The translations under genes were made by a program, and so were the position numbers. Below the pieces are notes generated by a model. It saw only the letters and a program-made list of their open reading frames with translations. It was not told where the DNA came from and searched no databases. Source: Jiella flava (GTDB lineage Bacteria > Pseudomonadota > Alphaproteobacteria > Rhizobiales > Rhizobiaceae). From it: a stretch of 64,000 bases of DNA. This document shows positions 3,225 through 59,553 of the stretch, in pieces (within the stretch, counting starts at the first letter, position 1; every line of letters begins with the position of its first letter). The stretch spans positions 186,001-250,000 of the forward strand of contig NZ_JAFMPP010000001.1 in the NCBI RefSeq assembly GCF_017349315.1, in the 5' to 3' direction.

Positions 3225-3474
3225 GGGCGTGTCAAAGGCCAGTCGGTCGATGCGGCGCCGCAAACGCCTGAGCAAACGGATGCGCAAATTGCGACAAATG
3301 CCCGCTGCACCGCTCCCGTCGACCGCGCGACGAGGCGACAACAGATCAGGCCTGCGGCAGTGTCTGGTCCGGCGCCAGAGGTGCGCAGAGCGCAATACTC
3401 CCGCTGCACACGTTCCGGCATCGCACGTCTCCGCAATTGCGCGTTTGTAAGGCAAGCCTAGAGAAACAGCACTC

Positions 3475-3497
3475 ATTTGTCAAGGTAATGGACAAAT
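3475..3497. promoter_or_regulatory. Perfect dyad ATTTGTC-N9-GACAAAT, candidate ROK operator
   Basis: Seven-base arms at 3475-3481 and 3491-3497 are exact reverse complements around a 9-base AT-rich spacer. The dyad sits in the divergent space between the glycosidase and the ROK repressor gene, where an autoregulating repressor would bind. Binding is inference. Confidence 0.5.
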
Positions 3498-3588
3498 CGT
3501 GTGAAAATGGCTAATCGACATGCCAGAACGCCGCTGTTTTGACGCTAAAACCGGCCTGTTTCGGCAAAGATGAGATTCCAAACGAACG

Positions 3589-3614
3589 AATTAGGCATAG
3601 GACCAGAACTAATT
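3589..3614. promoter_or_regulatory. Weaker dyad AATTAG-N14-CTAATT before the ROK gene
   Basis: Six-base inverted arms lie 21 bases before the ROK start codon. This could be a second operator half or chance; six-base arms in AT-rich intergenic DNA are weak evidence. Confidence 0.25.
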
Positions 3615-3634
3615 GAAGGCACAAATCCAAAGCG

Positions 3635-4816: not shown

Positions 4817-4865
4817 ACGGGTGGCTGCAAAGGATCGGGAATTCTGGAAAATCGGAGACTGAGGG

Positions 4866-6059
4866 ATGAAAGTCGGAATCGTCGGCCTTGGATCACGCAT
4901 GGCGCACATGGCCCACTGCTTCAAGGCACAAAAGCCGGACTTCGAATTCATCGCCTTTGCGGATCCGGCGCCGGCGGGGCGCCGCCATCTGGAAGACATC
5001 CTCGGCCTGACACTCGCCGGCTACGCGGCACTGGAAGACATGCTCCGCAACGAGCGCCTCGACATGCTAATGATCGGCTCGCCCAATCACCTGCATATCG
5101 CCCATCTCCGCACCGCTCTTCAGACGGATATCCCGCATCTCTTCGTTGAGAAACCGGTCGTGATCAGCGAGGACGAAACCTTCGAGCTTCTCAAACTGAT
5201 GCGCGATCACGACGGTCAGCGCCGACTGATGATCGGCCTCGTGCTGCGCTACTCCCCCCTCTACATCATGCTCAAAAACGCCCAGGCCAAAGGACAGCTG
5301 GGTGACATCGTCTCGATCGAGGCAGCCGAACATATCAACGGCTATCATGGCAGCTTCTTCATGCGGGATTGGCGCCGATATGCAAAATTTTCCGGCGGTT
5401 TCATGCTGGAAAAATGCTGCCACGACCTCGACCTTTATCAAGGCGTTGTTGGCCGGCGGGCCAAGTATGTCGCCAGTTTCGGCGGACGGAAAAGCTTCGT
5501 TCCGCAAAACCGCCCGGAGGTCCGGCCCAACTACGAAGCCATCGCGTTAGAGAAGGATCCAAGCGTCGCCCGGCGCATCGATCCGTTCAACCCGCGCTGG
5601 GGCGGAGGGGCCGACGATTTTGGCAGCGATGGCGACATCATCGACTACCAGACCGCACTCATCGAATACGAGGGAGGCGCGTCCTTGGCATTTCATACGA
5701 ATATGAATGTTCCCGACGAATATCGTCGTTTCGCCGTCATGGGTACCAAAGGCATGGCCGAAGGCGATTTCATCCGCAACACCTTCAAGTTGACCGACGC
5801 CTTCACCTCCAGGACGATTTCAGACAACGCCCAGGTCGGTCAGGGACGAGCCAACCATTCGGGAGCAGATGACAAGATCGCGGCGGACATCGCCGCCTAT
5901 CTCGATCATGGTTTTCCGCTGAAGGTCTCTGTGCTCGACGGGCTCGAGGCGGGCCTGACGGCGCTAAAGATCGACGAGGCACGACTTTCGCGCGCCGTGG
6001 TCGACATGACCGCCGTGTGGCAACAGTTCGACAGCTACTCTTTGACAACCCAAGCGTGA
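4866..6059 (+). CDS. Gfo/Idh/MocA-family NAD(P)-dependent oxidoreductase
   Basis: 397 residues. An N-terminal Rossmann fold opens MKVGIVGLGSRMAHMAH, an atypical GxGxxx glycine loop, and the family EKPV motif appears as FVEKPVVIS near residue 97, with its lysine expected to act in catalysis. SGGFMLEKCCHDLDLYQ is the second conserved block, containing the usual catalytic Asp and His. Members oxidise or reduce sugars, inositols or acetylated sugar nucleotides; the substrate here is unknown. A GGAG ribosome site precedes the ATG, 49 bases after the ROK gene, consistent with one operon with the downstream sugar ATPase. Confidence 0.87.
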   Translation: MKVGIVGLGSRMAHMAHCFKAQKPDFEFIAFADPAPAGRRHLEDILGLTLAGYAALEDMLRNERLDMLMIGSPNHLHIAHLRTALQTDIPHLFVEKPVVISEDETFELLKLMRDHDGQRRLMIGLVLRYSPLYIMLKNAQAKGQLGDIVSIEAAEHINGYHGSFFMRDWRRYAKFSGGFMLEKCCHDLDLYQGVVGRRAKYVASFGGRKSFVPQNRPEVRPNYEAIALEKDPSVARRIDPFNPRWGGGADDFGSDGDIIDYQTALIEYEGGASLAFHTNMNVPDEYRRFAVMGTKGMAEGDFIRNTFKLTDAFTSRTISDNAQVGQGRANHSGADDKIAADIAAYLDHGFPLKVSVLDGLEAGLTALKIDEARLSRAVVDMTAVWQQFDSYSLTTQA

Positions 6060-6062
6060 TGC

Positions 6063-6092
6063 CCGTTGCGTCCGACCGGACGCAACACGGGA
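6063..6092. repeat. Isolated palindrome related to the dispersed intergenic repeat
   Basis: CCCGTTGCGTCC and GGACGCAACACGGG pair around a GACC loop, with a two-base bulge. The core GCGTCCGACCGGACGC is the same palindrome that ends the larger dispersed repeats elsewhere in the window. It lies between the oxidoreductase and ATPase genes, where it could also affect mRNA stability. Confidence 0.6.
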
Positions 6093-6116
6093 CATGCAAA
6101 TGACGGAGATTGAGTC

Positions 6117-7262
6117 GTGGGGCAGCTTGAAATGCTCGATGTGCGCAAGGCGTTCGGCACGTTGGAAGTCATCAAGAACGTATCGTTGAAGATCCAGGAC
6201 GGCGAATTCGTCGTCTTTGTCGGCCCGTCCGGCTGCGGCAAGTCCACGCTTTTGCGCGTGATCGCGGGACTGGAAGAGATGAGCAGCGGAGACATTTGGA
6301 TCGACGGCGCTCTCGTCAACGATCTGGAACCGGCCAAGCGCGGGATCGCCATGGTGTTCCAATCCTACGCTCTTTATCCGCATATGTCGGTCTATGAGAA
6401 CATCGCCTTTCCGCTGCGCGTCGATCGGCTGCCCAAAGATGAACGCGATCGCAAAGTCCGCCGAGCTTCGGCTATCCTGAAACTCGACGAACGCCTCCAT
6501 CACAAGCCCGGACAACTCTCCGGCGGCCAGCGTCAGCGCGTCGCGATCGGCCGGGCGATCGTGCGCGAACCGTCAGTGTTTCTTTTTGACGAGCCGCTGT
6601 CCAATCTCGACGCGGCGCTTCGAGCCGATATGCGGATCGAACTGGGCAAGCTCCACAAGGAGCTTGGCGCGACGATGATCTACGTCACTCATGATCAGGT
6701 CGAGGCTATGACCATGGGCGACAGGATCGTGGTGCTCGATCAAGGTGCCATCAGTCAGGTCGGTACGCCGCTGGAACTCTATCACAAGCCGGTCAATCTC
6801 TTCGTGGCCCAGTTTATCGGCAATCCGAAAATGAACCTCCTGCCCGTCACCTGCATCGCGGCGGACGCGCGTGGCGCCACCGTTGCGCTTGCGAATGGCG
6901 CCGTTCTGACGGTGCCCGTGAAACTCGCCGCCGGCCTCAAGGGAGCCACGCTGACCCTCGGCATTCGTCCGGAGCATGTCCGTCTTGGCACGGAGGAGGA
7001 GGCGTCGCTCGAGGTGACGCCCACGGTGATCGAGCGTCTTGGCATCCACACGCTCGTCTATTCCGATTTGGAGACGAGCCAGGACGCCTTTACCGCTCTT
7101 TTCCCCGGCATGGTGGCCGCACAAACCGGCGTCCGTCAAATCGTCGGCATCAGGGCCAGCGACTGCCACCTCTTCGGTCCCGACGGGATGGCTTTGGAGC
7201 GCACTGTGGCGGCACATGAGATCGACCCGTCGGCCCTGCCGATGGAAACCGCCGCGGTTTGA
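6117..7262 (+). CDS. Sugar ABC transporter ATP-binding protein, UgpC/MalK type
   Basis: 381 residues from a GTG start. Walker A is GPSGCGKST at about residues 36-44, the Q loop follows in MVFQSYALYPHMSV, the signature is LSGGQRQRVAIGRAI, Walker B is VFLFDEPLSNLDA, and the H loop is YVTHDQVEAMTMGDR. The C-terminal 130 residues form the OB/TOBE regulatory domain of the MalK group, including LGIRPEHVRL. It energises import of carbohydrate, probably with the solute-binding protein at the start of the window and permeases outside it. The GTG is chosen because the conserved N-terminus (LDVRKAFG) begins just after it. Confidence 0.92.
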   Translation: MGQLEMLDVRKAFGTLEVIKNVSLKIQDGEFVVFVGPSGCGKSTLLRVIAGLEEMSSGDIWIDGALVNDLEPAKRGIAMVFQSYALYPHMSVYENIAFPLRVDRLPKDERDRKVRRASAILKLDERLHHKPGQLSGGQRQRVAIGRAIVREPSVFLFDEPLSNLDAALRADMRIELGKLHKELGATMIYVTHDQVEAMTMGDRIVVLDQGAISQVGTPLELYHKPVNLFVAQFIGNPKMNLLPVTCIAADARGATVALANGAVLTVPVKLAAGLKGATLTLGIRPEHVRLGTEEEASLEVTPTVIERLGIHTLVYSDLETSQDAFTALFPGMVAAQTGVRQIVGIRASDCHLFGPDGMALERTVAAHEIDPSALPMETAAV

Positions 7263-7328
7263 GCGATCGAAACATCCCGATTCACGAGACGCGCCGCCAT
7301 TCGACGCTGGCTCCGAGAAAGATCCCCA

Positions 7329-8150
7329 ATGAAAGTCCTCATCTTTCCAACAGCGTCCGAGGCCATCGCGTCCGTCGCGGACCGTGTTCTTGACGAAGTC
7401 AAGCGCAAGGCAAGCGCTGTCCTTGGCCTTGCCACGGGAGGCACGATGGAGGCTGTCTATGACCGTTTGGTTCTTCGCGCCCAGGTCGATGACGTCTCCT
7501 TCGCAAACGTCAAAAGCTTCAATCTCGACGAATATTGGGGCCTGCCACCCGACCACCCGGCGAGCTATCATACCTACATGCGCGAGCGCCTGTTCGAGCG
7601 GATCGACATCAAACTCGCGAACACGCGGCTGCCGCGGGGCGACCGGACGGACGCTGCCGCCGAATGCCGGGCCTATGAAGCCGCCATTGCAAACGCCGGC
7701 GGCATCGATTTGCAATTGCTCGGGATTGGCCGCAACGGGCACATCGGATTCAATGAGCCGACCTCCAGTCTCGCCTCGCGCACCCGCGTGAAGACACTGA
7801 CCGAGGCGACCCGCCAAGCGAACGCCGCCTTTTTCGATCGGCCCGAACATGTCCCCCCTTGCGCGCTGACCATGGGGATCGGGACAATCTTGGACGCCCG
7901 AGCCTGTGTTCTTCTCGCAATTGGCTCGGCCAAGAGTGCTGCGGTGGCCAAAGCGATTGAAGGACCGGTTGCCGCCACTTGCCCCGCTTCGGCCCTGCAG
8001 CTGCACGGCGACATGACCATGGTCCTCGATCGAGAGGCCGCCGTCGGACTGACGCTGATCGACTACTATCAAAGCGTGCATCCGGACGGCGCGCAGATCG
8101 GCGCCGGCGATCCGTGCGCGCCGCCGGCCGCGTCACCGGCCACGGACTGA
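7329..8150 (+). CDS. nagB: Glucosamine-6-phosphate deaminase
   Basis: 273 residues. It converts glucosamine 6-phosphate to fructose 6-phosphate and ammonia in the cytoplasm, the last step of amino-sugar catabolism. Seen are the phosphate loop LATGGTMEAVYDRL, the FNLDEYWGL block with the catalytic Asp at about residue 67, and GIGRNGHIGFNEP, which carries the active-site His and Glu. ALTMGIGTI and an ATCPASALQLH tail complete the family pattern. It follows the ATPase gene by 66 bases and links the locus to amino sugars. No nagA was seen in the window. Confidence 0.93.
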   Translation: MKVLIFPTASEAIASVADRVLDEVKRKASAVLGLATGGTMEAVYDRLVLRAQVDDVSFANVKSFNLDEYWGLPPDHPASYHTYMRERLFERIDIKLANTRLPRGDRTDAAAECRAYEAAIANAGGIDLQLLGIGRNGHIGFNEPTSSLASRTRVKTLTEATRQANAAFFDRPEHVPPCALTMGIGTILDARACVLLAIGSAKSAAVAKAIEGPVAATCPASALQLHGDMTMVLDREAAVGLTLIDYYQSVHPDGAQIGAGDPCAPPAASPATD

Positions 8151-8192
8151 AACCGCTGCACAAACGTCCGCTCATTTGACGAACCGATCCGC

Positions 8193-9590
8193 ATGTGCCC
8201 TGACCCAGATCTTCCCCGTCCCGACGACATCATCCTGCAAGAGACCGCGGGCGATGCGACCGATCGCATTCAGGCCGCCCTCGACCGAGCGCGCCAAGTC
8301 GGATGCCGGCTGATCCTCGGACCGGGCCGTTATCCAACGCGCGGCCTCGTTTTTAGAGCCGGAGCGCATCTTCATCTCAGCGAAAGCGCGATCTTGGAAC
8401 CGGTCGGCGACTATGAGGCCTATGCCGAAACGAGCGTCGATGTCATCGCCGAGGACTCAGATCGTGCGATCCTCGTTGCCAAGGGTGCGAAGGACATCCG
8501 CATTTCCGGCCGGGGCGTGATCGCGGCGCCGTCCAGCGACTTCGTCGTCGGCGCGCTCGCCGATATGGGCACGCACCTGCCGGCACGCCTGCGTCCCCGT
8601 GTCCTCGTCTTCGACGGCTGCCGGAATGTCCGCATCGAAGAAATCTCCATCCGGCAGTCTCCGATGTGGACGTTGCATCTCGTGGCTTGCACGGATGTGG
8701 TGGTGCGCAACGTCGCCATTGAGAACGACCCCCGAATGCCGAACACAGATGGCATCGTGATCGATTCCTGCGTCAACGTCGCCATCGAACATGTCGATGT
8801 CGCCACGGCCGACGACGGCGTCGTGGTGAAGACGAGCCGGCGAACAGACGGCTCTCCGGTCGGGCCCTGTCGGAATATTCGGGTGCATGCAAGCCGGATC
8901 GAGAGCCGCAGCTGCGCCCTGAAGATCGGAACCGAGACCCATTCCGAGTGTGCTGAAATCACGTTCAGCGATTGCAGCGTTGTTGCCTCCAACCGCGCGC
9001 TTGGCATCTTCTCCCGCGATGGTGGCGAAATCCACAACGTCGCTTTCAGGCGCATTGCGGTCGACTGCAGCGAAACGCCGGACGGCTTCTGGGGCTCCGG
9101 CGAGGCGATCACCGTCAACGTTGTCGATCGTCGTCCGGAACGACCGGCCGGTGCCGTTCGCGACGTTGTTTTTGAGGATATTTCCGGTGTGATGGAGGGG
9201 GCCATCAACCTTGTGGCCCTCGGTGAAGCTGACATGTCTGGCATTGCACTGCGGCGCATCAACCTCCAGCAACGTCTCGGCAAGCTTGGAACCGGTTCAT
9301 GCTGCGATCTGCGTCCCACCCGAGCCGACCTTGCGCCCGCGAAGGATGCAACCGGCCGCGCCAATGCCTATGTCAAGAATGCCCTTGGCGCCGTGGTCGG
9401 TCTTGTCGCCTATCCAGACGGGATGCCCGGCCTTTTTGCATTTCATGTGCATGACCTCGTTTGCGACGACGTTCATATCCACCGACCCGATCCGTTGCCG
9501 ACGGGCTGGAGTCGGAAACGACAGATCATGACGTCGAAGGCATTCGTCTCGGACATCGGCAGCATCGTGTGGCCTGAAAATGGGAATTGA
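8193..9590 (+). CDS. GH28-like (polygalacturonase-fold) glycoside hydrolase
   Basis: 465 residues. A right-handed parallel beta-helix is suggested by many short repeating strands. GH28 hallmarks are NTDGIVID and TADDGVVVK, giving the expected three catalytic Asp residues. The classic GHG and RIK motifs are replaced (ALKIGTETHSE), so the substrate may differ from polygalacturonan. The N-terminal ILQETAGDATDRIQAALD resembles the family's usual ND-TAAIQ lead-in. No signal peptide is visible, so it may process imported oligosaccharide inside the cell. The last codons and TGA lie within a copy of the dispersed repeat (from about 9577), so the native C-terminus may have been altered. Confidence 0.83.
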   Translation: MCPDPDLPRPDDIILQETAGDATDRIQAALDRARQVGCRLILGPGRYPTRGLVFRAGAHLHLSESAILEPVGDYEAYAETSVDVIAEDSDRAILVAKGAKDIRISGRGVIAAPSSDFVVGALADMGTHLPARLRPRVLVFDGCRNVRIEEISIRQSPMWTLHLVACTDVVVRNVAIENDPRMPNTDGIVIDSCVNVAIEHVDVATADDGVVVKTSRRTDGSPVGPCRNIRVHASRIESRSCALKIGTETHSECAEITFSDCSVVASNRALGIFSRDGGEIHNVAFRRIAVDCSETPDGFWGSGEAITVNVVDRRPERPAGAVRDVVFEDISGVMEGAINLVALGEADMSGIALRRINLQQRLGKLGTGSCCDLRPTRADLAPAKDATGRANAYVKNALGAVVGLVAYPDGMPGLFAFHVHDLVCDDVHIHRPDPLPTGWSRKRQIMTSKAFVSDIGSIVWPENGN

Positions 9591-9674
9591 TTTTCGGGAC
9601 GCGCAATGCGCCGGTTCAACAAGATCGCGCGTCCTTTGTGCGTCCGACCGGATGCAGGGCGCTCTAAGCGGGAT
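9577..9674 (+). repeat. Dispersed intergenic repeat, copy A
   Basis: GGGAATTGATTTTCGG, AATGCGCCGGTTCAA and GTGCGTCCGACCGGATGCAG follow the order and spacing of the better-conserved copies at 17370 and 38791. This copy is more diverged. It begins inside the preceding coding sequence. Confidence 0.7.
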
Positions 9675-10012
9675 ATCGCAACAGTCCATCCTGATTGAAG
9701 CCGGCCCGGCAGAGAGGCAATTGTTGGTGCCATCCCGCGGAGTGATGCCAACCATCAAACCCACTCGTTGGGCGCCCGCATCCTTGAGCGATGCATCCAA
9801 TTTTTCGCGTGATCCTCGAATTGGGAGCCTTCGCGGAGACTTTGAACGGAGCGATGCGGGTTTGAAGGCAGAATGCGATCCAAGGAGCCCACGGAGGGTC
9901 CCAAACTCTGAAGGACGTTTGGCTTGGCCGCCCCTGCGCCCTTGCATCCCCCGTTTCCCTCGCCTAGACAGCGGCCCGGTTTCTTCGCAGACGATGGCAA
10001 CAAGGGCGGGCG
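9675..10012. other. Intergenic stretch with no gene seen
   Basis: The 338 bases between repeat copy A and the decarboxylase gene contain open frames but none with family resemblance or a convincing start. It presumably holds the promoter of the polyamine genes. Confidence 0.5.
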
Positions 10013-49889: not shown

Positions 49890-50192
49890 TCAGATGCCGG
49901 CGCGCATGATCGCCGGGTCGACATAGACCACGATGAAATACTGCAGGAACATGATGATGAAGAGCACGACCAGCGGCGACAGGTCGATCCCGCCGAGATC
50001 GGGCAGGAAGCGCCGGATCTTGCGATAGACCGGCTCGGTCATCTGCCAGAGGAAGCGGCCGATCGCATCCACGAACGGATTGCCGGGATTGACGATGTTG
50101 AACGCGTAGAGCCAGGAGAGCACGGCCGAAGCGATCACGATCCACCAATAGAGATTGAGCGCCTGATAGATTACGAAGGTGACTGCCAGCAT
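49890..50192 (-). CDS. YggT family membrane protein
   Basis: 100 residues with two membrane helices, ALNLYWWIVIASAVLSWLYAF and LSPLVVLFIIMFLQYFIV. The central NPFVDAIGRFLWQMTEPVYRKIRRFLPD is diagnostic of the family. Relatives are implicated in membrane organisation or osmotic tolerance. It heads the pair with DUF167. Confidence 0.93.
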   Translation of the reverse strand: MLAVTFVIYQALNLYWWIVIASAVLSWLYAFNIVNPGNPFVDAIGRFLWQMTEPVYRKIRRFLPDLGGIDLSPLVVLFIIMFLQYFIVVYVDPAIMRAGI

Positions 50193-50388
50193 CGATCCCG
50201 TGCCTTGTTTTCGGTCCTAGCCGATGTAGACACTGCCTTGCTCGGGCGCAAGAAAGACAGGACTTGAGCGTTAACGCCTAACTGCTCCTGCAGCCGCTTT
50301 CGTCCGGCGCGAATCTCCGCCCCGGCCCCACCGAAGCCGTTGACAGACGGCGCCTCCAAGCTCTAAAAGCCGCCTCACATCGGTGGAC

Positions 50389-50464
<76 letters not shown>

Positions 50465-50651
50465 ATGTTTTTCTCGGGAAAATTTATATCAAGTCTGGGG
50501 TCCGCGCGACTTTGCACCGTTTTCTTCGGCGCCTTGTTCCCCGCGTTGCTCGCTGATTCTCCAGCCCTTGCCAACACAAACGCCGCGGACCGACGAGGGT
50601 CTATCGGACCATCACGTCGATCCGAGGCGCTCAAAGGTCATCGCTCCGGCA

Positions 50652-50688
50652 GCGCCGCGCGGAAGCGTGAGCCTCCACGCGGCGGCGC
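50652..50688 (-). terminator. GC-rich hairpin at the end of the pip/peptide-transporter operon
   Basis: GCGCCGC and GCGGCGC arms enclose a further CGTG/CACG inner stem, just downstream of the binding-protein stop codon. No T tract, so it may be a rho-dependent end or RNA stabiliser. Confidence 0.4.
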
Positions 50689-50691
50689 GCC

Positions 50692-52206
50692 CTACTCCTT
50701 GTCGGTGTCTTCGAGGAAGAAGCGACCCAGCGGATTCTGAAAGAAGTCCTTCACGTTCTTGCGGGCGACATTGATGTAGGGGCTGTAGTACAGGTCGACC
50801 CAGTTGACGTCGGCCTTCGCCTGCTTCTGCAGTTCGACATACATCGTTTCGCGCTTCTTCGGGTCCATCTCGACCCGCGCCTTGGCGACGAGCTTGGTGA
50901 CCGCCGGGTTGTTGTAGCGGGTCATGTAGTTCATGTTGGAATCATTGCCGAGCACAAAGGTCGTCTTCTGGTCCGGATCGAGAATATCGTTGGTCCAGTA
51001 GGCCTTGGCGACGTCGTAATCGCCATCGACCAGCATACCCCACTGCTGGGACGGATCGACCTTGCGGATGTTCAGCGTGATGCCCGCCTTGGCGAATTGC
51101 TGCTGCAACAGAACGCCGACCTGCTCGTCGACCTCGTCGCCGGCCTGGGCGAGATAGGTCAGCGTCAAATTGGAAACGCCGGCTTCCTTGAGCAGCGTTT
51201 TGGCCTTTTCCGGATCGTAGGGGCGAACCGCGTTGTCGGCATTGTAGTAGAGCGCGCCCTTCGGGATGTAGGAATTGGCGACGGTGCCGATGCCGAAGGT
51301 CACAGCGTCGACGATCGCCTTCTTGTCGGTGGCGTCGTCGATCGCCTCGCGCACCTTCTGCTTGCCGAGATCCCCATGGGAATGGTTGATCAAAAGCGAG
51401 TCTTCGCGGGTTGAAGGCTCCAAGAGGACGTTGAGATTGGGATCGGCCTCGAGCTGCTGAACGCGGGAGAACGGCACGAAGATCGCGGCATCGATCTGGC
51501 CGGCCTGGACGTCGAGCATGCGGGTGTTGTCGTCGGGGATCGAAATCCACTCCACGCCGTCGAGCTTGACCCGGTCAGCCTGCCAGAAATTCGGGTTTTT
51601 CTCCAGGATGACGCGGTCGCCGCGGATCCAGTCCTTGACCATGAAGGCGCCGGACGCGATCGGCTTCTGGGCGTAGGCCTCTTCGCCCATTGTCTCCATC
51701 CCCTTCTTGGAGATGATCGAGGCGCCGGGCATGGCGAGGGTCGAAAGAAAGGGCGCGGAGGGCGACTTCAGCTTGACGACGAGCGTCTGCGCGTCCGGCG
51801 TCGCCATGTCGGCGACGATCTTGTAGGAATCCGACCACAGCGACAGCTTGTCGTCGCGAATGCGGGTCAGCGAATATTTCGCGTCTTCCGAGGTGATCGG
51901 CGAGCCGTCGGAGAACTTCGCGTCGCGCATCTTGAACGTATAGGTCAGATTGTCCGGCGAGACCGTCCAGCTCTCGGCAAGGCCCGGCTCCAGCTTGGTC
52001 CCGGTCTTGTCCACCCGCACGAGCACGTCATAGACATTGGCAAAGACCCAGAAGTCGATGTTCTGGGCGGTGGCGATCGGATCGAAGGTCGAGGAATCTT
52101 CACGGCGACCGATGGTCAGCACGCCCGCAGCCTCGGCCACGCTGGTGCCGAAGGTCAGTGCCGCGAGGGCGGTCGTCGCGGCCAGAAAAAAGATCTTGCG
52201 ATTCAT
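50692..52206 (-). CDS. Peptide/nickel-type ABC transporter substrate-binding protein (family 5)
   Basis: 504 residues. A signal peptide (IFFLAATTALAALTFGTSVAEAA) leads to a family 5 binding protein: LEPGLAESWTVSPDNLTYTFKMRDAKFSDGSPITSEDAKYSLTRI, then GAFMVKDWIRGDRVILEKNPNFW, the conserved ligand-lobe motif. YDPEKAKTLLKEAG follows. Binds peptides, opines, amides or similar small molecules. It is the last gene of the pip operon and overlaps the upstream ATPase gene by ATGA; the AGGAGAG ribosome site is strong, so it may be made in excess. The ligand is unknown; context suggests a signal molecule or peptide-like plant compound. Confidence 0.93.
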   Translation of the reverse strand: MNRKIFFLAATTALAALTFGTSVAEAAGVLTIGRREDSSTFDPIATAQNIDFWVFANVYDVLVRVDKTGTKLEPGLAESWTVSPDNLTYTFKMRDAKFSDGSPITSEDAKYSLTRIRDDKLSLWSDSYKIVADMATPDAQTLVVKLKSPSAPFLSTLAMPGASIISKKGMETMGEEAYAQKPIASGAFMVKDWIRGDRVILEKNPNFWQADRVKLDGVEWISIPDDNTRMLDVQAGQIDAAIFVPFSRVQQLEADPNLNVLLEPSTREDSLLINHSHGDLGKQKVREAIDDATDKKAIVDAVTFGIGTVANSYIPKGALYYNADNAVRPYDPEKAKTLLKEAGVSNLTLTYLAQAGDEVDEQVGVLLQQQFAKAGITLNIRKVDPSQQWGMLVDGDYDVAKAYWTNDILDPDQKTTFVLGNDSNMNYMTRYNNPAVTKLVAKARVEMDPKKRETMYVELQKQAKADVNWVDLYYSPYINVARKNVKDFFQNPLGRFFLEDTDKE

Positions 52207-53240
52207 GGATGCTCTCCTGTCGTCGTCAGGCGGGTTGCAGTTGCGGGGGAAGGAAGCTGACCGGGGTCGAAAATACAGGCCCAGCCATGGCCGTCGCGGC
52301 GCCGTAGCGTCGGCGCGGGATCGGCCTTGCATCGGGCTTTGGCAAAGGCGCAGCGCGGGTGGAAACTGCAGCCGGACGGCAGGTTGAGCGGGCTCGGCGG
52401 CTCGCCCTGCATCGGCGCTTCGGGCAGAACGATGTCGGGATCGATTTCCGGGATCGATTGGATCAGCGCGGCCGTATAAGGATGACGCGGCGCGGCAAAG
52501 ACCTGTTCGGTCGGGCCCTCTTCGACGATCCGCCCGAGATACATCACCGCCACCCGGTCGCAGAGCCGGCGGACGATCGACAGATCATGGGCGATGAAGA
52601 TCAAGGTGAGGTTCATCCGCTCTTTCAGATCGAGGAAGAGGTTGATGATCTGCCCCTGGATCGAGACGTCGAGCGCGGCGACGCATTCGTCGGCGACGAT
52701 CAGCTTCGGCTCCACCGCCAGCGCCCGAGCGATGCCGACGCGCTGGCACTGGCCGCCGCTGAGCGCCTTCGGCCGCCGGGCAGCAAGCGCCGGATCAAGA
52801 CCAACCAGCGACAACAGCTCGGCCACGCGCTTGCCGACCTCAGGGCCCGGGACCTTATTGTGGACGCGCAGCACCTCGGCGATCGCCTCGCCGACCGTCA
52901 GCCGGGGATTAAGCGCGTTCATCGGATCCTGAAACACCGTCGCCGTTTCCCGGCGCAGCGTCTTCAGGCCACGCGGGTTCTTCGCCGAAACTGCGACGCC
53001 GTCGAAGGCGACATGGCCGCTGGTGACGCTTTCGAGGCCGAGCAGCGCCCGGCCGAGGGTCGACTTGCCGGAGCCGGATTCGCCGACAAGGCCGATGGTT
53101 TCGCCGGGCTTGACGCTCAGCGACACGCCGTTCAGCGCCTTCACCGAGCGCCTCGTCAGCCCGAGCGGACCGCCGCCAGGGGCCGGAAAATGCAGGACGA
53201 CGTCGTCCGCTTCGATCAGCGGCGTGCGGTCGATCGTCAT
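52203..53240 (-). CDS. Peptide ABC transporter ATP-binding protein (OppF/DppF type)
   Basis: 345 residues. Walker A is GESGSGKST, the Q loop AVFQDPMNALNPRLTV, the signature LSGGQCQRVGIARAL (Cys in place of the common Arg/Gln) and Walker B LIVADECVAALDVS, with C in place of the usual P after DE. The C-terminal CSFHPRCAFAKARC is the Opp/Dpp iron-sulfur-type Cys motif. Pairs with the next ATPase to power import. ATGA overlaps at both ends show translational coupling. Confidence 0.94.
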   Translation of the reverse strand: MTIDRTPLIEADDVVLHFPAPGGGPLGLTRRSVKALNGVSLSVKPGETIGLVGESGSGKSTLGRALLGLESVTSGHVAFDGVAVSAKNPRGLKTLRRETATVFQDPMNALNPRLTVGEAIAEVLRVHNKVPGPEVGKRVAELLSLVGLDPALAARRPKALSGGQCQRVGIARALAVEPKLIVADECVAALDVSIQGQIINLFLDLKERMNLTLIFIAHDLSIVRRLCDRVAVMYLGRIVEEGPTEQVFAAPRHPYTAALIQSIPEIDPDIVLPEAPMQGEPPSPLNLPSGCSFHPRCAFAKARCKADPAPTLRRRDGHGWACIFDPGQLPSPATATRLTTTGEHP

Positions 53241-54244
53241 GCGAAGCCCCGCGCCGGAACGCTTGTCAGCTCCGAGACGACCGGATTGTGGCAGGCAAGC
53301 CGCCGATCTTGGCCAACGTCCTCGAATGGTGGCTGCAGCCGCGCGCAGGCGTCGACGGCGTTTGAGCAGCGCGGATGGAATCGGCAGCCGCTCGGCATGG
53401 CATCGATCGTCGGCGGATAGCCGGGAATCGTCTTCAGCCGGCTGCCGGTCGCGCCGGCGCCCGGCTGACAGCCGGTCAGACCCGCCGTGTAGGGATGACG
53501 CGGATCGGCGAGCAGCGTGCGCTTGTCGCCGATTTCGCAGACCCGGCCGCCATAGAGCACGCAGATCCGGTCGCAGAGCTGGGCGACGACGCCGAGATCA
53601 TGGGTGATGAAGATGATCGACAGACCCCGCGCGTCGCGCAGCTCTTTGAGCAGCCGCAGGATCTGCGCCTGAACCGTCACGTCGAGGGCGGTGGTCGGCT
53701 CGTCGGCGATCAGGATGTCGGGATCGGAGGCGAGCGCCAGGGCGATCATCGCCCGCTGCCGCATGCCGCCGGAGAACTCATGCGGAAAACCCCGCGACCG
53801 CTCCTTCGGATCGGGAATGCCGACCTGGGTCAACAGTTCGACGGCGCGTGCTTCGGCCGCCCGGCGCGAGCTGCCATGATGGAAGCGCACGCTCTCGGCG
53901 ATCTGCTCGCCGATGCGCATCACCGGATCAAGATGGCTGGCCGGATTTTGGAAGATCATGCCGATGCGCTTGCCGCGAACGGTGCGGAACCCCGCATCCG
54001 GCAGCGCCATCACGTCCTCGCCGTCGATCCGCACCCGGCCGCCGGGGATCGACAGGCGTTTCGACGGCAAAAGCTTGAGCAGGGCGCGGCACGCCATGGT
54101 CTTACCCGAGCCGCTCTCACCGACGAGCCCAAGGATCTCCCCCTTGCCGAGCGTGAAGGAAACCCGATCGACGATGACGTGACGGCCGGTGTCGGTGGCG
54201 ACGTCGACGGTGAGGTCCTCGACCTCGAAGAACGCCCCGCTCAT
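53237..54244 (-). CDS. Peptide ABC transporter ATP-binding protein (OppD/DppD type)
   Basis: 335 residues. Walker [11 protein letters not shown] loop [16 protein letters not shown], signature [15 protein letters not shown], Walker [16 protein letters not shown] loop [11 protein letters not shown]. The C-terminal end carries [17 protein letters not shown], the Dpp Cys motif. It forms the ATPase pair with the preceding-listed subunit. It starts at 54244, overlapping the stop of the permease gene. Confidence 0.94.
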
Positions 54245-55101
54245 GGCCGCACTCCCAGTTTTTCGCCGAGGCCATCGGCGAGCAGGCTGAAGCCGAAGGC
54301 AAGCACCACGATGGCAAGGCCCGGGAAGGTCGAAATCCACCAGGCGATGGAGATGAAGGCCTGGCCGTCGGCGACCATGATGCCCCACTCGGCCGTCGGC
54401 GGCTGCACGCCGAGCCCGAGATAACTGATCGCCGCGCCGTTCAGGAGCACCAGCACCGCGTCGGACATGGAAAACACGATCGAGCCGACCATGGCGTTCG
54501 GCAGGAGATGACGGAACATGATGCGCCAATGGGAAAAGCCGAGGCTTTTCGCCGCCATGGCGAAGTCGCTCTGGCGCAGCACCAGGATCTGCGCCCGGAT
54601 CAGCCGGGCATAGGAGACCCAACCAACCAGCCCCATGGCGATGTAGAAGCTGGCAAGGCCAGGGCCTAAAATGGCGATGATCGCCAGCATCAAGACCAGG
54701 AAGGGAAAGGCGAGGACGACGTCGACCACCCGCATGAACAGGGTGTCGGTCAGCCCGCCGAAATAGCCGGCGATGGTGCCTGTGGCGGTGCCGATGATGA
54801 ACGGGAAGATCACACCCAGCACCGCGATCTGCAGATCGACCCGAGCGCTCCAGATTACCCGCGCGAGGATGTCACGGCCGAAATTGTCGGTGCCGAAGGG
54901 ATGGGCGAGGCTCGGCGGGGCGAGCCTGGCGGCGATATCCTGATAGACTGGATCGTAAGGCGAAATCAGCGGCGCGCCGATGGCAAGCACCAGGAAGACG
55001 GTCAGGATCGCGCCGCCGATCAACATCGGCTGCGGCACACCAGCGGTCAGGCGGCCCAGAAACCGGCGCGGCATCGGCCGATCGAGGGTCGCCTCGCTCA
55101 T
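54241..55101 (-). CDS. Peptide ABC transporter permease (OppC/DppC type)
   Basis: 286 residues with six membrane helices. HPFGTDNFGRDILARVIWSARVDL is the classic DppC N-terminal motif, and AMAAKSLGFSHWRIMFRHLLPN is the ATPase-contact EAA loop. It forms the channel with the DppB-type permease. Starts at 55101 with ATGA overlap on the DppB gene and ends overlapping the ATPase gene. Confidence 0.95.
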   Translation of the reverse strand: MSEATLDRPMPRRFLGRLTAGVPQPMLIGGAILTVFLVLAIGAPLISPYDPVYQDIAARLAPPSLAHPFGTDNFGRDILARVIWSARVDLQIAVLGVIFPFIIGTATGTIAGYFGGLTDTLFMRVVDVVLAFPFLVLMLAIIAILGPGLASFYIAMGLVGWVSYARLIRAQILVLRQSDFAMAAKSLGFSHWRIMFRHLLPNAMVGSIVFSMSDAVLVLLNGAAISYLGLGVQPPTAEWGIMVADGQAFISIAWWISTFPGLAIVVLAFGFSLLADGLGEKLGVRP

Positions 55102-56036
55102 AGCGTCACCCTCGGATCGAGCACCACGGTCAAGATGTCGGCGAGGAAGTTGGTCAGCACCGAGGCCAGCGCGAACAGCATCGCGACGCCCTGCACCACC
55201 ATGTAGTCGCGGGTGAAGATCGCCCGGATCAACAGCTGACCCATGCCGGGAATGGCAAAGACGCTTTCGACGACGACGGTGCCGCTGATCAGCCAGCCGA
55301 TATTGACCGCGAGAAGATTCAGCGTCGGGATCAGCGAATTGGGCAGGACGTGCCGGCGAAAGACGATATGCTCCGGCAGGCCGCGCGCCCGCGCCGCCAT
55401 CGCCGCGTCGGATTCCATCTCGGCGAGGAGGCTTGCCCGCAGGCTGCGGGTCAAGACCGCCGACAGCGACAAGGCGATGGTTAGGCACGGCAGCACCATG
55501 TGATGCAGTTTGTCGGCCACGGACTGACCATAGCCCGAGACCGGAAACAGGCCGAGCTTCACGCTGAACAGGATGATCAGCATGATGCCGAGCCAGAAGG
55601 CCGGCATGCCGAGGCCGCCGGTCGAGATCATCCGCACGGCATGGTCGATCGCGCCGCCGCGGTGGCCGGCCGCCAGGGTGGCCAGCGGGATGGTGATGAT
55701 GAGGGAGAGAATGACGCTGCCGAACACCAAGACCAGCGTCGGCTCCAACCGGCCGAGGATCAGACCGATGACGTCGACCTTATAGAGGATCGAGCGGCCC
55801 ATCTCGCCGTGGAAGAGGTTTTTGACAAAGTCGAAATACTGCACCCAGATCGGTTCATCGAGACCGAACTGGGCACGGATATTGGCAAGCGCCTCGGGCG
55901 TCGCGCGGGTGCCGAGCAGGATGCGCGCCGGATCGCCGGGGATCGAATGGACCAGCACGAAGGTGATGATGCTGATGCCGACGAGGACAGGCAGCAATTG
56001 CAGCGGACGATAAAAGACGAAGCGATAGCGATGCAT
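55098..56036 (-). CDS. Peptide ABC transporter permease (OppB/DppB type)
   Basis: 312 residues with six helices. The N-terminus has LLPVLVGISIITFVLVHSIPGDPARILLG, typical of OppB/DppB. AMAARARGLPEHIVFRRHVLPNSLIP is the EAA loop and the end is TNFLADILTVVLDPRVTL. It begins one base after the upstream iminopeptidase gene, with a GAGGCGG site in that gene's tail, so it is clearly part of the same transcript. Confidence 0.95.
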   Translation of the reverse strand: MHRYRFVFYRPLQLLPVLVGISIITFVLVHSIPGDPARILLGTRATPEALANIRAQFGLDEPIWVQYFDFVKNLFHGEMGRSILYKVDVIGLILGRLEPTLVLVFGSVILSLIITIPLATLAAGHRGGAIDHAVRMISTGGLGMPAFWLGIMLIILFSVKLGLFPVSGYGQSVADKLHHMVLPCLTIALSLSAVLTRSLRASLLAEMESDAAMAARARGLPEHIVFRRHVLPNSLIPTLNLLAVNIGWLISGTVVVESVFAIPGMGQLLIRAIFTRDYMVVQGVAMLFALASVLTNFLADILTVVLDPRVTL

Positions 56037-56037
56037 A

Positions 56038-57036
56038 TCAATCCGCCTCTACCTGTTCGGCGGGCTGCGGCTCTTCCGCTCGACACAAGCGGAGCGGATG
56101 GCGCCTGAAGAAGTCGACGAGCATCGCCCGATAGGCTTCGGGCTCTTCGTAAAAGGGAGCGTGGGAGCTGTTGGGGAAGATTCCGATCTGCGATCTTGCG
56201 ATGGCATGGTGCATGCGGGCCGCGCAGGCCGGCGTCAAGACGTCGTTCTTGCCACCGACGATCAGCACCGGCCAGTCGAACCGAGCGAGATCGGCAAGCC
56301 GGTTCCAGTCGCGGATCGAGCCGGTATAGCAGTATTCGTTTGGCCCCTGGATCGCCATGAAGATCGGCGCATTGAAGCCGTCCTTGGAGCGCTGGACCGA
56401 ATCGGGCCGCGCCGCCGTGCGCCGCAAGTGGCGATGATCGAGGAGGTCGACGGCGGCCCGGTAGGCGGGATGATCGTAGCGCTCCTCGGCCTCGAAGCGC
56501 TGCATCATCGCCTCGGTTTCAGGGCCGAGCGCCGAGCGCAGCCGGGTGATCTCGCCGAGGAGATGAGGGATATCGGCGGCGGTGTTGGCGAGCACCATCG
56601 AGCCGATCCGCTCGGGATGCGTCAGCGCATATTCGATGCCGCACCAGCCGCCCCAGCTGTGGCCGAGAAAGTGCACCCGCTCGAGCCCGAAAGAGTCGAG
56701 AACGGCCTCGACCTCGTCGACGGAGCGGGCCATCGTCCATAGCCCCGCATCGTCCGGACGGTCGGAGGCGCCGGTGCCGAGTTGATCATGCACGACGACG
56801 CGAAAGCCGAGATCGGTGAGCGGGAGATGCGGATCGCGCAGATAGTCGCAGGGCAGACCCGGCCCTCCGTTCAGGAGAAAGACGACCTCGTCGCCCGCCC
56901 CGTAGCTGTAGCCGACGACCTTGTGCCCGCTGTCGAGCGTGATCACCCGGCGCTCGTCCGGCGCCCGATGCTCCCAGACGCGAAAACCGTGAACGGTCTC
57001 CGCGAACGCCTCGATCTGTGCGGGGGACGCCGTCAC
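56038..57036 (-). CDS. Proline iminopeptidase-like alpha/beta hydrolase, paralogue 1
   Basis: 332 residues, S33 family. The oxyanion loop NGGPGLPCDYLRD and nucleophile elbow GHSWGGW are present; the acid Asp lies in VGGKNDVLTPACA and the catalytic His in NSSHAPFYEEPEAY. It would remove N-terminal proline or cleave a related amide. No signal peptide, so cytoplasmic. It follows a second copy by 8 bases and precedes dppB by one base. The N-terminus is about 34 residues longer than paralogue 2 and the tail ends EEPQPAEQVEAD. Whether it acts on peptide or on a small plant amide is unknown. Confidence 0.92.
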   Translation of the reverse strand: MTASPAQIEAFAETVHGFRVWEHRAPDERRVITLDSGHKVVGYSYGAGDEVVFLLNGGPGLPCDYLRDPHLPLTDLGFRVVVHDQLGTGASDRPDDAGLWTMARSVDEVEAVLDSFGLERVHFLGHSWGGWCGIEYALTHPERIGSMVLANTAADIPHLLGEITRLRSALGPETEAMMQRFEAEERYDHPAYRAAVDLLDHRHLRRTAARPDSVQRSKDGFNAPIFMAIQGPNEYCYTGSIRDWNRLADLARFDWPVLIVGGKNDVLTPACAARMHHAIARSQIGIFPNSSHAPFYEEPEAYRAMLVDFFRRHPLRLCRAEEPQPAEQVEAD

Positions 57037-57044
57037 CGCGCGCC

Positions 57045-57935
57045 TTACCCGTTACCGCGACGCTTGAGGAAGTCGACGAGCACCGGATAGAATGCCTCCG
57101 GCTCCTCGTAAAACGGCATGTGGCTAGAGTTTGGGAACACCTTCAGTTCGGCATCCGGCAGCGCATGCTTCATCTTCGCCGCACAAGCCGGCGTCAACTC
57201 GTCATGCTGGCCGACGGTGATCAGGGTCGGCACGGTGATCCGATGCATGTCCGGAATGCGGTTCCAGGCGGACATATTGCCGACATATAGGAACTCGTTC
57301 GGGCCCTGCATGGTCTCGTACGGTCCCATGTTCCAGTCGTCGAGCGAGCGCCGCACCGGCGCCGGCCACACGTCGAGACGGCAGACATGGCGGTAGTTCA
57401 AAATCGTGATCGCCGCCTGATATTCGGGATGGTCGAGCGTGCCCTCGGCCTCGTGGCGCTGCATCATCGCCACCGTCTCGGAGCCGAGGCTGGCACGTAG
57501 CCGCTCGAGTTCGCCGATCAGATGCGGAATGTCGGCCGCGGTGTTTTCTAAGATCAGCGTGCGCAGCGCCTCGGGATGGGTCAGTGCGTATTCGATCGAC
57601 AGCCAGCCGCCCCAGGACTGACCGACCAGATGCACCTTGCCGAGACCCAGCGCCTGGCGCACCGCCTCGACTTCTTTCACATAGCGCTCGACGGTCCATA
57701 GCGAGCGGTCGGTCGGTCGATCGGACGAGCCGGTGCCGAGCTGGTCGAAGGCGACGACGCGATAGCCGTGGTCGATCAGGCAGGAATGGGAATCGCGCAG
57801 ATAGTCGCAAGGCAGCCCGGGGCCGCCGTTCAGACAGAAGACCACATCGTCACCCGAGCCGAAGCTGTAGGTCACGATCTTGTAGCCATCCACTTCAACG
57901 TCACGCCGCTCGTCCGGTTCGATTTCCCGCCACAT
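57045..57935 (-). CDS. pip: Proline iminopeptidase-like alpha/beta hydrolase, paralogue 2
   Basis: 296 residues. The same catalytic set is seen: NGGPGLPCDYLRD, GQSWGGW with Ser107, GQHDELTPACA and NSSHMPFYEEPEAF. It resembles its neighbour across the whole length, so it is a tandem duplicate, somewhat diverged. The gene is first in the operon and divergent from the LuxR-type regulator, which is the arrangement of pip genes controlled by XccR, OryR and PipR. The ribosome site is weak. A 9-base dyad lies 21-61 bases before its start. Confidence 0.92.
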   Translation of the reverse strand: MWREIEPDERRDVEVDGYKIVTYSFGSGDDVVFCLNGGPGLPCDYLRDSHSCLIDHGYRVVAFDQLGTGSSDRPTDRSLWTVERYVKEVEAVRQALGLGKVHLVGQSWGGWLSIEYALTHPEALRTLILENTAADIPHLIGELERLRASLGSETVAMMQRHEAEGTLDHPEYQAAITILNYRHVCRLDVWPAPVRRSLDDWNMGPYETMQGPNEFLYVGNMSAWNRIPDMHRITVPTLITVGQHDELTPACAAKMKHALPDAELKVFPNSSHMPFYEEPEAFYPVLVDFLKRRGNG

Positions 57936-57955
57936 GTTGCCAACCCGCTTCGTCT

Positions 57956-57996
57956 TAGGCTTTTGGGATGCTCTTTCGAGCGTTTCAAAAAGCCTA
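57956..57996. promoter_or_regulatory. Dyad TAGGCTTTT-N23-AAAAGCCTA between luxR-type gene and pip
   Basis: Nine-base exact inverted arms at 57956-57964 and 57988-57996. The centre also has a small GCTC/GAGC dyad. It is 21 bases upstream of the pip start and about 116 bases upstream of the regulator. It may be the operator of the regulator or part of the pip leader; it does not look like a canonical 20-base lux box. Confidence 0.4.
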
Positions 57997-58111
57997 GCGC
58001 TTCGCGCCCGAAGCCCGCCAGCTATTAAAAATGATAGGTCCGACGGCGGCGAGGCTTGCTTGGGTTCGCTCAGGATGTAAACATGTCGAAAAAATAGTCA
58101 GCAAGAGCACG

Positions 58112-58900
58112 ATGTCCCTGATCGCAACGGACAGTTCTGAAATCGACGCCTATTTCGAGGCGGGCCAGACCGCGGAGGAGCGCATCGCGCTCGCCGAAAA
58201 GGCCATCGCCGCCTACGGGCTGACATCGCTGATCTACGACTTCACGACAATCAAATATTCCCATGACGGAGAGCTGGTGACGCCGTCCTTTCTGGCTATG
58301 CGCAACTTGCCGAAGGACATGGTCAAGATCTGGTGCGAGGAAGGGTTTTATCAGATCGACCCGGTGCAGCAGTTGGCCTTCCGCTCCCACCTGCCCTTCG
58401 TCTGGTCCTATCGGCGGGACGGCAAGACGCCCCTCAACCGCATTCTCGGTGAAACCCACGAGCCGGTGGTCGATTATCTGCATGATTCCGGCATCACCTG
58501 CGGCCTGACGGTGCCCGTCCATCTGCCGAATGGCGAATGCGCCACGGTGACCGGCATCCGCCACGGCGCGGGATCTGACTTCGAGCGTGAAATCACCCCG
58601 CATGTCGCCAATTTCACGCTGTTTGCCCATATCCTCCACGAGAAGGTCTATGCCATTCTCGGCGAGGATGCCCGCAACGCCCGGCCGGTGCACCTGACAC
58701 CGCGAGAGAGGGAATGCGTCGCCTATGCCGCCGAAGGCCTGTCGGCGAAGGAGATCTCGTTGAAGATCGACCGCTCGGTGCCGACGGTGGTGATGCATCT
58801 CAACGCCGCCACGCGAAAACTCGCGGCCACCAACCGGGCGCAGATGATCGCCCGGGCCGCACATTACCGGCTGATCGAGACCGGCTTCAGCGTAATCTGA
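58112..58900 (+). CDS. LuxR-solo regulator of the OryR/PipR (plant-signal) type
   Basis: 262 residues. The N-terminal autoinducer-binding domain contains NLPKDMVKIWCEEGFYQIDPVQ. Aligned on TraR, Trp57 is Met70 and Tyr61 is Trp74, while Asp70-Pro71 (Asp83-Pro84) and Trp85 (Trp98) are kept. M/W at those two sites is the known mark of plant-associated LuxR solos that do not bind acyl-homoserine lactones. The LuxR helix-turn-helix is at the C-terminus (LTPREREC, then AEGLSAKEISLKI) with Glu199 and Gly209 conserved. No luxI is nearby. A start at 58031 would add 27 residues. It is divergent from two pip genes and a peptide transporter, which it probably activates. Confidence 0.9.
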   Translation: MSLIATDSSEIDAYFEAGQTAEERIALAEKAIAAYGLTSLIYDFTTIKYSHDGELVTPSFLAMRNLPKDMVKIWCEEGFYQIDPVQQLAFRSHLPFVWSYRRDGKTPLNRILGETHEPVVDYLHDSGITCGLTVPVHLPNGECATVTGIRHGAGSDFEREITPHVANFTLFAHILHEKVYAILGEDARNARPVHLTPRERECVAYAAEGLSAKEISLKIDRSVPTVVMHLNAATRKLAATNRAQMIARAAHYRLIETGFSVI

Positions 58901-59061
58901 CGCCGCGATGGCCGCCGCGCCCAAAACTGGCACGAACGGTGGCATCCGTGCCAAACGATGAGGCATCATTGCCATCGCCATTTGCCTCGCCTCGTCTCGT
59001 CTCGACCAGGTGCCACCCATTGCAATTGCGACACGCATGATTTGCCAGCCAACGGAACGCC

Positions 59062-59553
59062 ATGCCCCAGCCTCCAGCCGTCCTTTTCGTCTGTCTCGGC
59101 AATATCTGCCGCTCGCCGCTGGCCGAAGCCGCCTTTCGCGCGGCGGCCGAGCGCGAAGGCCTGACGGTCGAGGTCGATTCGGCCGGGCTTGGCCGCTGGC
59201 ATCTTGGTTGTCCGCCAGATTCCCGCTCCCAGGCCGTCGCCCGCCGCCACGGCATCGAGATCGGCGAGCGCCGGGCACGGCTGGTGAGGCGGGAGGACTT
59301 TTATCGCTTCGACCATATCGTCGGCCTCGACCAGGACAATCTCATAGGCCTGCGCCAGCTCGCCCCGGCTGATGCGACGGCCACAATCAGCCTGCTTCTC
59401 GATCACGTCCCGGGCCGCAAAGGCCAGTCGGTGCGCGATCCTTATTATGAAGACGAATCAGCCTTCGCCGATGCCTGGCGCGACGCCTGCGAGGGCGCCG
59501 ATGCATTGATCACGGCACTCAAGGCGGAGATGGGCCGAAAATACGAGCCATGA
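59062..59553 (+). CDS. Low-molecular-weight phosphotyrosine phosphatase family protein
   Basis: 163 residues. The CX5R loop is VCLGNICRSPLAEA near residue 10, and the general-acid DPYYEDE near residue 125 completes the fold. Family members dephosphorylate tyrosine, but relatives adjacent to fructosamine-kinase genes (LMW-PTP-A) have been shown to act on ribulosamine 5-phosphates. The next gene overlaps by ATGA and is a fructosamine-kinase homologue, so that role is favoured here (inference). Confidence 0.92.
   Translation: MPQPPAVLFVCLGNICRSPLAEAAFRAAAEREGLTVEVDSAGLGRWHLGCPPDSRSQAVARRHGIEIGERRARLVRREDFYRFDHIVGLDQDNLIGLRQLAPADATATISLLLDHVPGRKGQSVRDPYYEDESAFADAWRDACEGADALITALKAEMGRKYEP

Follow-up and report, generated by a model that had tools for sequence, protein, structure and literature searches.

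A trimmed PipR-type locus in Jiella flava: a LuxR solo, a divergent aap operon with an additional AapA-type hydrolase, and a probable single operator

The closest described relative of the locus considered here is the PipR system of Pseudomonas sp. GM79, in which a LuxR solo is encoded divergently from an aapA-B-C-D-E-F operon, with an operator lying some 90 bp ahead of aapA, and with pipA and a second operator downstream of the regulator gene (PMC4981722). In that strain the response is reported to depend on the transporter and to rise when the peptidase is lost, and PipR is a strong activator of pipA but only a weak one of aapA (PMC4981722). The binding protein AapF of Pseudomonas sp. PDC86 is represented by PDB entries 7kz8 and 7kz9, and 7KZ9 contains bound HEHEAA (PMC11168924). 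OryR and XccR of Xanthomonas, compared here through the literature only, are likewise LuxR solos of the plant-associated bacterial (PAB) type, with Met and Trp (M/W) at two key positions and an adjacent pip gene, but in the account given in PMC4981722 they have no linked ATP-binding cassette (ABC) transporter. Here we describe a 64,000-nucleotide stretch of the Jiella flava genome (the window; contig C12:186001-250000 of a 4.16 Mb genome in 49 contigs), in which a LuxR solo of this family probably controls an adjacent divergent aap operon for the uptake, sensing and hydrolysis of an imported compound. The layout, the regulator family and the loop model are already in print; what is added is a trimmed form of the circuit that is without pipA, the additional hydrolase Pip1, and a probable operator. 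The features of the locus are as follows.

58112..58900, + strand: pipR-type LuxR solo, 262 aa (Pfam Autoind_bind and GerE, residues, tree)
58020..58039, - strand: probable operator of the regulator (intergenic alignment, motif counts)
57045..57935, - strand: aapA orthologue ('pip2'), 296 aa, predicted cytoplasmic S33-type aminopeptidase (TIGR01250, identity, residues)
56038..57036, - strand: 'pip1', probable diverged AapA-type paralogue, 332 aa, GTG start (identity, tree, residues, dN/dS)
55098..56036, - strand: aapB-type permease, dppB (BPD_transp_1; 66-86% identity to aap-linked relatives)
54241..55101, - strand: aapC-type permease, dppC (BPD_transp_1, OppC_N; synteny)
53237..54244, - strand: ATPase, dppD (ABC_tran, oligo_HPY; ATGA overlap)
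52203..53240, - strand: ATPase, dppF (ABC_tran, oligo_HPY; ATGA overlap)
50692..52206, - strand: AapF-type periplasmic binding protein (SBP_bac_5; match to AapF of PDB 7kz8/7kz9)

The divergent run comprises two proline-iminopeptidase-family hydrolases, two permeases, two oligopeptide-type ATPases and one family-5 binding protein, and the seven-gene order read in an initial annotation of this DNA, with spacings of 8 and 1 bases followed by ATGA overlaps (four, each of 4 bases), is reproduced in full from the coordinates. The locus shares with GM79 the LuxR solo, the divergent aap operon and the position of the operator; it differs in having neither the downstream pipA nor the second operator, in the additional hydrolase, of AapA type, encoded between aapA and aapB, and in its M/W regulator, where PipR of GM79 is W/W. 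An alternative, longer start for the regulator at 58031 is present in the list of open reading frames, but 58112 was preferred because relatives align from about that position and 58031 falls inside the operator.

Both domains of the regulator score above the Pfam cut-offs (PF03472, 94 bits; PF00196, 42 bits). Counted from 58112 it has M70, W74, D83, P84, W98 and G131, so that the Met70, Trp74, Asp83-Pro84 and Trp98 named in the initial annotation are found as described. The first five of these residues occupy the alignment columns assigned to W57, Y61, D70, P71 and W85 of TraR, a numbering matched to published descriptions, and the regulator combines W57M and Y61W with retention of D70, P71, W85 and G113. 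At the columns of TraR V73, F101 and A105 it has Q86, V119 and L123; Gln, Val and Leu are given as the PAB residues at these columns, and Gln as a PAB mark (PMC3909224). When 96 PAB-type rows (the window and 95 others) were aligned with 22 other LuxR rows as controls, Trp at the Tyr61 column and Gln at the V73 column were each present in 96/96 PAB-type rows and 0/22 controls. Met at the W57 column is not universal (92/96, the others being two Trp, one Phe and one Leu; 1/22 controls), Leu at the A105 column occurs in 78/96 against 1/22, and Val at the F101 column does not discriminate, since it is found also in 7/22 controls.

In the regulator tree the 96 PipR-like rows split from the 22 controls with support 100/98, and this split was recovered in 100% of 200 bootstrap trees. 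Four controls are of N-acylhomoserine lactone (AHL) type by context, two lying beside TraM/trb, one beside an AHL synthase, and one being the genome's own LuxR beside a luxI-type gene; the remaining controls are uncharacterised. The rows are not independent, Rhizobium being over-represented, and the anchors of the tree are strain 3841 and the Pseudomonas-like loci L149 and L150 (binding proteins 94-95% identical to AapF), in place of OryR, XccR, NesR, PsoR and GM79 PipR. A search with the regulator through 398 genomes of the phylum gave 12, its own included, at E 1.2e-79 or better, the next being at 1.1e-28; within the genus it is present in only 3/10 genomes. Among 614 plasmid records, 60 spread rows formed two groups, one with identities of 45-51% and the other lying mostly below 30%, with a single short match at 34%. 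Phylogeny, residues, gene context (the adjoining pip-family gene at 57045-57935) and the AapF-like binding protein together support membership of the known PAB family of LuxR solos, that of OryR, PipR and NesR, and the initial assignment as a PAB/PipR-type solo is borne out. Where it extends the M/W mark to PipR it needs correction: in PipR of GM79 Trp57 is retained and residue 61 is also Trp (PMC4981722, PMC7301841), and the regulators of L149 and L150 are also W/W. The statement may derive from a review that places PipR among the M/W proteins (PMC10134790).

A PDB sequence search with the binding protein gave AapF (7kz8, 7kz9) at 703 bits, the next best match scoring 174. It is 64% identical over 475 residues to AapF, which is likewise a family-5 protein, and it keeps 187/188 of the columns that are invariant in 24 aap-linked relatives, together with 55/55 family-specific columns, which are those not found in five of its own paralogues and one binding protein of unrelated type; its best own paralogue is only 34% identical. 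These results support its orthology to AapF, which does not in itself prove the ligand, and they identify the transporter, as judged by such matches, as the aapB-F transporter of the PipR system.

The layout was compared across the best 80 of 224 genome loci of relatives. The canonical arrangement, with aapF-B and aapA divergent from luxR and with pipA downstream, is seen in 67/80. The other 13 are all from Aurantimonadaceae (Jiella, Aurantimonas, Aureimonas, Mangrovicella), and pipA was seen near luxR in none of them, although L051 is without its upstream side, L053 lies on a short contig, and L056 extends only 363 bases downstream. When whole genomes were searched with PipA of R. johnstonii, an orthologue was found in 0/10 regulator-bearing Aurantimonadaceae genomes (that of J. 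flava, G004, G005 and G436-G442), the query matching only AapA-type genes there at 30-37% identity; in the J. flava genome, the locus included, the best PipA match is pip2 at 36%. In two other genomes of the genus, where the regulator is absent, the same query found a clear PipA orthologue (62-63% identity). The NesR-type rhizobial loci, such as that on pRL9 of Rhizobium johnstonii 3841 (L025; M/W regulator 47%, aapA 74% and binding protein 76% identical to those of the window), show the same divergent arrangement but carry pipA with its own operator downstream of luxR, whereas the window has neither; the two ATPases, annotated as one fused protein in L025 and L026, are separate in the window. 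The loci of Aurantimonas, Aureimonas and Mangrovicella (L050, L052-L061) share the trimmed layout and the single operator but are without Pip1. Judged from these genomes, Aurantimonadaceae have lost the pipA branch together with its operator, and the description of the circuit as 'complete' is not supported, because both of these canonical parts are absent. Within the seven-gene divergent order for which the initial annotation proposed a search, the extra hydrolase was seen only in the window and Jiella sp. LLJ827. The family has already been published in Aureimonas, where the flanking arrangements are called very conserved (PMC10134790), and no mention of a missing pipA was met in the accessible text of the papers searched on the family.

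Other placements of pipA were also observed. On plasmid pAU20c of Aureimonas sp. AU20 (L041, 8862-16565) a PipR-like regulator (45%) lies between PipA and a peptide transporter of another kind. In L177 (G007:C1:34000-49000, about 4200-9900), and similarly in L178 (G009), both from genomes of the genus that are without the PipR regulator, a PipA orthologue lies beside a different peptide-type ABC transporter; upstream of it in L177 are 196-aa and 429-aa genes, which we take to resemble an AmiR/AmiC-type pair and which suggest that the enzyme is controlled there in a different way.

Alignment of the 13 Aurantimonadaceae intergenic regions revealed one conserved block, AGCTATCA-N4-TGATAGGT, which in the window lies at 58020-58039 and reads A-CCTAT-N8-ATAGCT toward pip2 (AGCTATTAAAAATGATAGGT on the + strand). 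It is centred 94 bp before the pip2 start, and the corresponding distance for the GM79 aapA operator is 91.5 (PMC4981722). The motif CCTAT-N8-ATAGCT facing the divergent gene is matched at 11/11 positions in 84/95 loci, the 11 imperfect loci scoring 10 (two), 9 (five), 8 (two), 7 (one) and 6 (one); the Pseudomonas-like L149 and L150 match poorly (9/11). Of 780 control windows taken from these loci, none scored above 9/11, a score reached by 16, and the opposite orientation at the divergent side was never above 9. A second copy, facing the downstream pip, is perfect in 72 of the 79 loci that have a downstream pip, while among the 16 loci that have none, 15 score at most 8/11 there and L041, with a transporter on that side, scores 11. 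No second operator was found downstream of luxR in the window, the best score being 7/11, and in the J. flava genome as a whole the pattern matches once. The block at 58020-58039 is probably the operator of the regulator, oriented toward the aap operon, and is new here. A second block, at 58060-58092 between operator and luxR (CTTGC-N(about 13)-CGC...ATGTRAACATG), is also conserved in the Aurantimonadaceae alignment and is perhaps the luxR promoter; a scan of 57900-58200 for sigma-70-like promoters gave none.

Both hydrolases exceed the TIGR01250 cut-off of 168 bits, with scores of 272 and 232. Identities of 74-76% to rhizobial AapA and of 84-89% to other Aurantimonadaceae AapA mark pip2 as the aapA orthologue, and its catalytic S107/D245/H272 and both Glu214 and Glu246 are kept. 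Pip1 is probably a diverged second AapA with altered substrate preference. It is 57% identical to pip2, 80% to the copy in Jiella sp. LLJ827, 55-58% to AapA and 31-32% to PipA, and in the pip tree it stands on the AapA side (100/100), sharing a long branch of its own (1.28) with the LLJ827 copy; on these identities and this tree, the idea that it is a relocated pipA was rejected. Its triad S127/D265/H292 is intact, and the triad and the Glu214 position are kept in both copies. At the Glu246 position both copies have Val (Val266 in the window), where Glu is found in 89/89 AapA and 80/80 PipA sequences and also in 27/28 related proteins of the order, the exception (L212) having Phe/Tyr at 214/246. 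Pip1 is altered too at His161, Cys185, Trp190 and Tyr206, positions fixed in both the AapA and the PipA families, and of 136 near-invariant AapA columns 33 are changed in it. Because both hydrolases are AapA-type and Pip1 has lost a conserved pocket residue, the idea that they match the published pair is not supported. Glu246 aligns to the residue after the catalytic Asp of Thermoplasma proline iminopeptidase, where chains 1xrq and 1xrr have Gln, which implies that crystallographers mutated this position. By analogy with factor F1, the equivalent Glu presumably holds the N-terminus of the substrate.

Pip1 was seen in 2/13 Aurantimonadaceae loci with a readable upstream side, the window and Jiella sp. 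LLJ827. Their rows are not closest to each other in the regulator tree, so that loss of the gene elsewhere, or its transfer, has to be considered. Apart from the window's own copy, a search of 397 genomes from the order gave no relative exceeding 59% identity, and a search of 698 plasmid records gave none reaching 60%; Pip1 may have arisen by duplication within the family followed by fast change, or may have come from an unsampled source. A separate tandem pair of AapA-type genes, both keeping Glu, lies ahead of aapB-F in L215 (G039:C21:1-14000, 1962-8868); no PipR-type regulator was detected in that stretch, which has only about 2 kb of contig upstream. Lone AapA orthologues, 83-84% identical to pip2, occur in L176 (G004:C38, 9882-10769) and L179 (G009:C4, 8033-8920), with aap permeases and binding protein not nearby.

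The mechanism that we favour begins with import, by the AapF-type binding protein and the ABC importer, of a small compound, peptide-like or an ethanolamine amide, that most likely comes from plants. This compound, or a product of it, would bind the regulator, whose dimer would then bind the one 20-bp operator and activate import and hydrolysis, and the predicted cytoplasmic AapA-type hydrolases would degrade the inducer and so shut the system down. The loop of import, sensing and hydrolysis that the initial annotation proposed is already the published model for GM79 (PMC4981722), and would apply to the window by analogy. Since the strong branch, that of pipA, has been lost together with its operator, the remaining operator would now serve the importer itself, so that positive feedback by uptake and negative feedback by hydrolysis would both run from one promoter; it is because the aap promoter is the only one left in the window that we infer joint control of import and hydrolysis. 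The sequences themselves show which genes are present, their orthology, how the operator is conserved and oriented, that pipA has been lost and which residues are substituted in Pip1; the ligand, the regulation and the activity of Pip1 in J. flava are inferred.

Several observations weigh against this interpretation. A close homologue of the binding protein is reportedly unable to bind HEHEAA (PMC10134790), and PsrR, an M/W regulator, gave no response to HEHEAA in its host (PMC7301841). The family member in L151 has no pip or aap genes in its neighbourhood, and in L046 pipA occurs where the aap genes are missing, which implies that parts of the circuit can work apart. Since GM79 PipR is weak on aapA, the promoter remaining in the window might be weakly regulated; and since a reversed control pattern matches twice in the J. 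flava genome, the single genomic match to the operator is weak evidence when taken alone. It is quite possible, too, that the locus is a substrate-induced nutrient operon, with a one-component sensor for a peptide-like or ethanolamine-derived nitrogen source of any origin. Such an operon would work as the signal circuit does, and only the meaning of the compound would differ. The sole conserved operator found in Aurantimonadaceae faces the importer-hydrolase operon, with no second match in the genome; GM79 PipR answers peptone and a tripeptide as well (PMC4981722); and the relatives include soil or not obviously plant-linked bacteria such as Pleomorphomonas and Aureimonas glaciei. Many carriers are, however, plant-linked by name (Rhizobium, Phyllobacterium endophyticum, Aurantimonas endophytica, Aureimonas phyllosphaerae, Leaf isolates), subgroup 0 solos are reported from plant or terrestrial isolates (PMC10134790), and other members of the family control traits beyond their locus (PMC4981722).

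A bolder proposal, which we regard as doubtful, is that the Aurantimonadaceae circuit has been rewired from signalling to a single-operator uptake switch, the regulator mainly amplifying import of its inducer, with Pip1 in Jiella as an inducer-specific amidase; Pip1 would then hydrolyse an N-substituted or N-blocked amide without the usual anchoring of a free N-terminus. The opposite view of Pip1, as a redundant AapA in decay, would fit its long branch, its many changes at near-invariant columns and its two carriers, but it is unlikely: the triad is intact and the frame open in both carriers, and comparison of the two copies gave a ratio of nonsynonymous to synonymous substitution (dN/dS) of about 0.13 (dN 0.146, dS 1.17, the latter near saturation), close to the value of about 0.08 for the AapA pair, which speaks against a dead gene. 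As for the regulator, it is very improbable that it is AHL-responsive and served by a luxI product made elsewhere in the genome. One luxI-type gene does exist, the only one in the genome, but it lies on a different contig (C46), about 0.8 kb from another LuxR, so that on position the initial annotation's proviso of a luxI elsewhere activating this regulator does not apply; the Trp at the Tyr61 column and the grouping away from all 22 controls, the four with AHL-type context among them, also oppose it.

Few natural ligands of this widespread family of plant-associated receptors are known, and it is not clear what the pip enzymes do. A naturally reduced circuit that has a single operator and a single target operon, is without PipA and has an enzyme altered in its pocket would offer a simple system for studying the core of the circuit and the substrates of its hydrolases, and the operator consensus provides a motif for predicting regulons of the family across Alphaproteobacteria.

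Directly past the end of the binding-protein gene lies a tRNA-Ala (CGC) gene at 50389-50464, the sole match in an Rfam scan of 50000-59100. It was considered as an integration site for the operon and rejected, the best 16-base match to the tRNA at the right boundary being 11/16; a clean empty site in sister genomes was not obtained either, the left flank of the window not being found in the stretches compared. Elsewhere, three LuxR-type matches to the PipR-type model (E about 1e-26 to 1e-27) lie in tandem at G109:C9:17387-19608. The low-molecular-weight phosphatase/kinase pair that adjoins luxR in the window is conserved in sister genomes.

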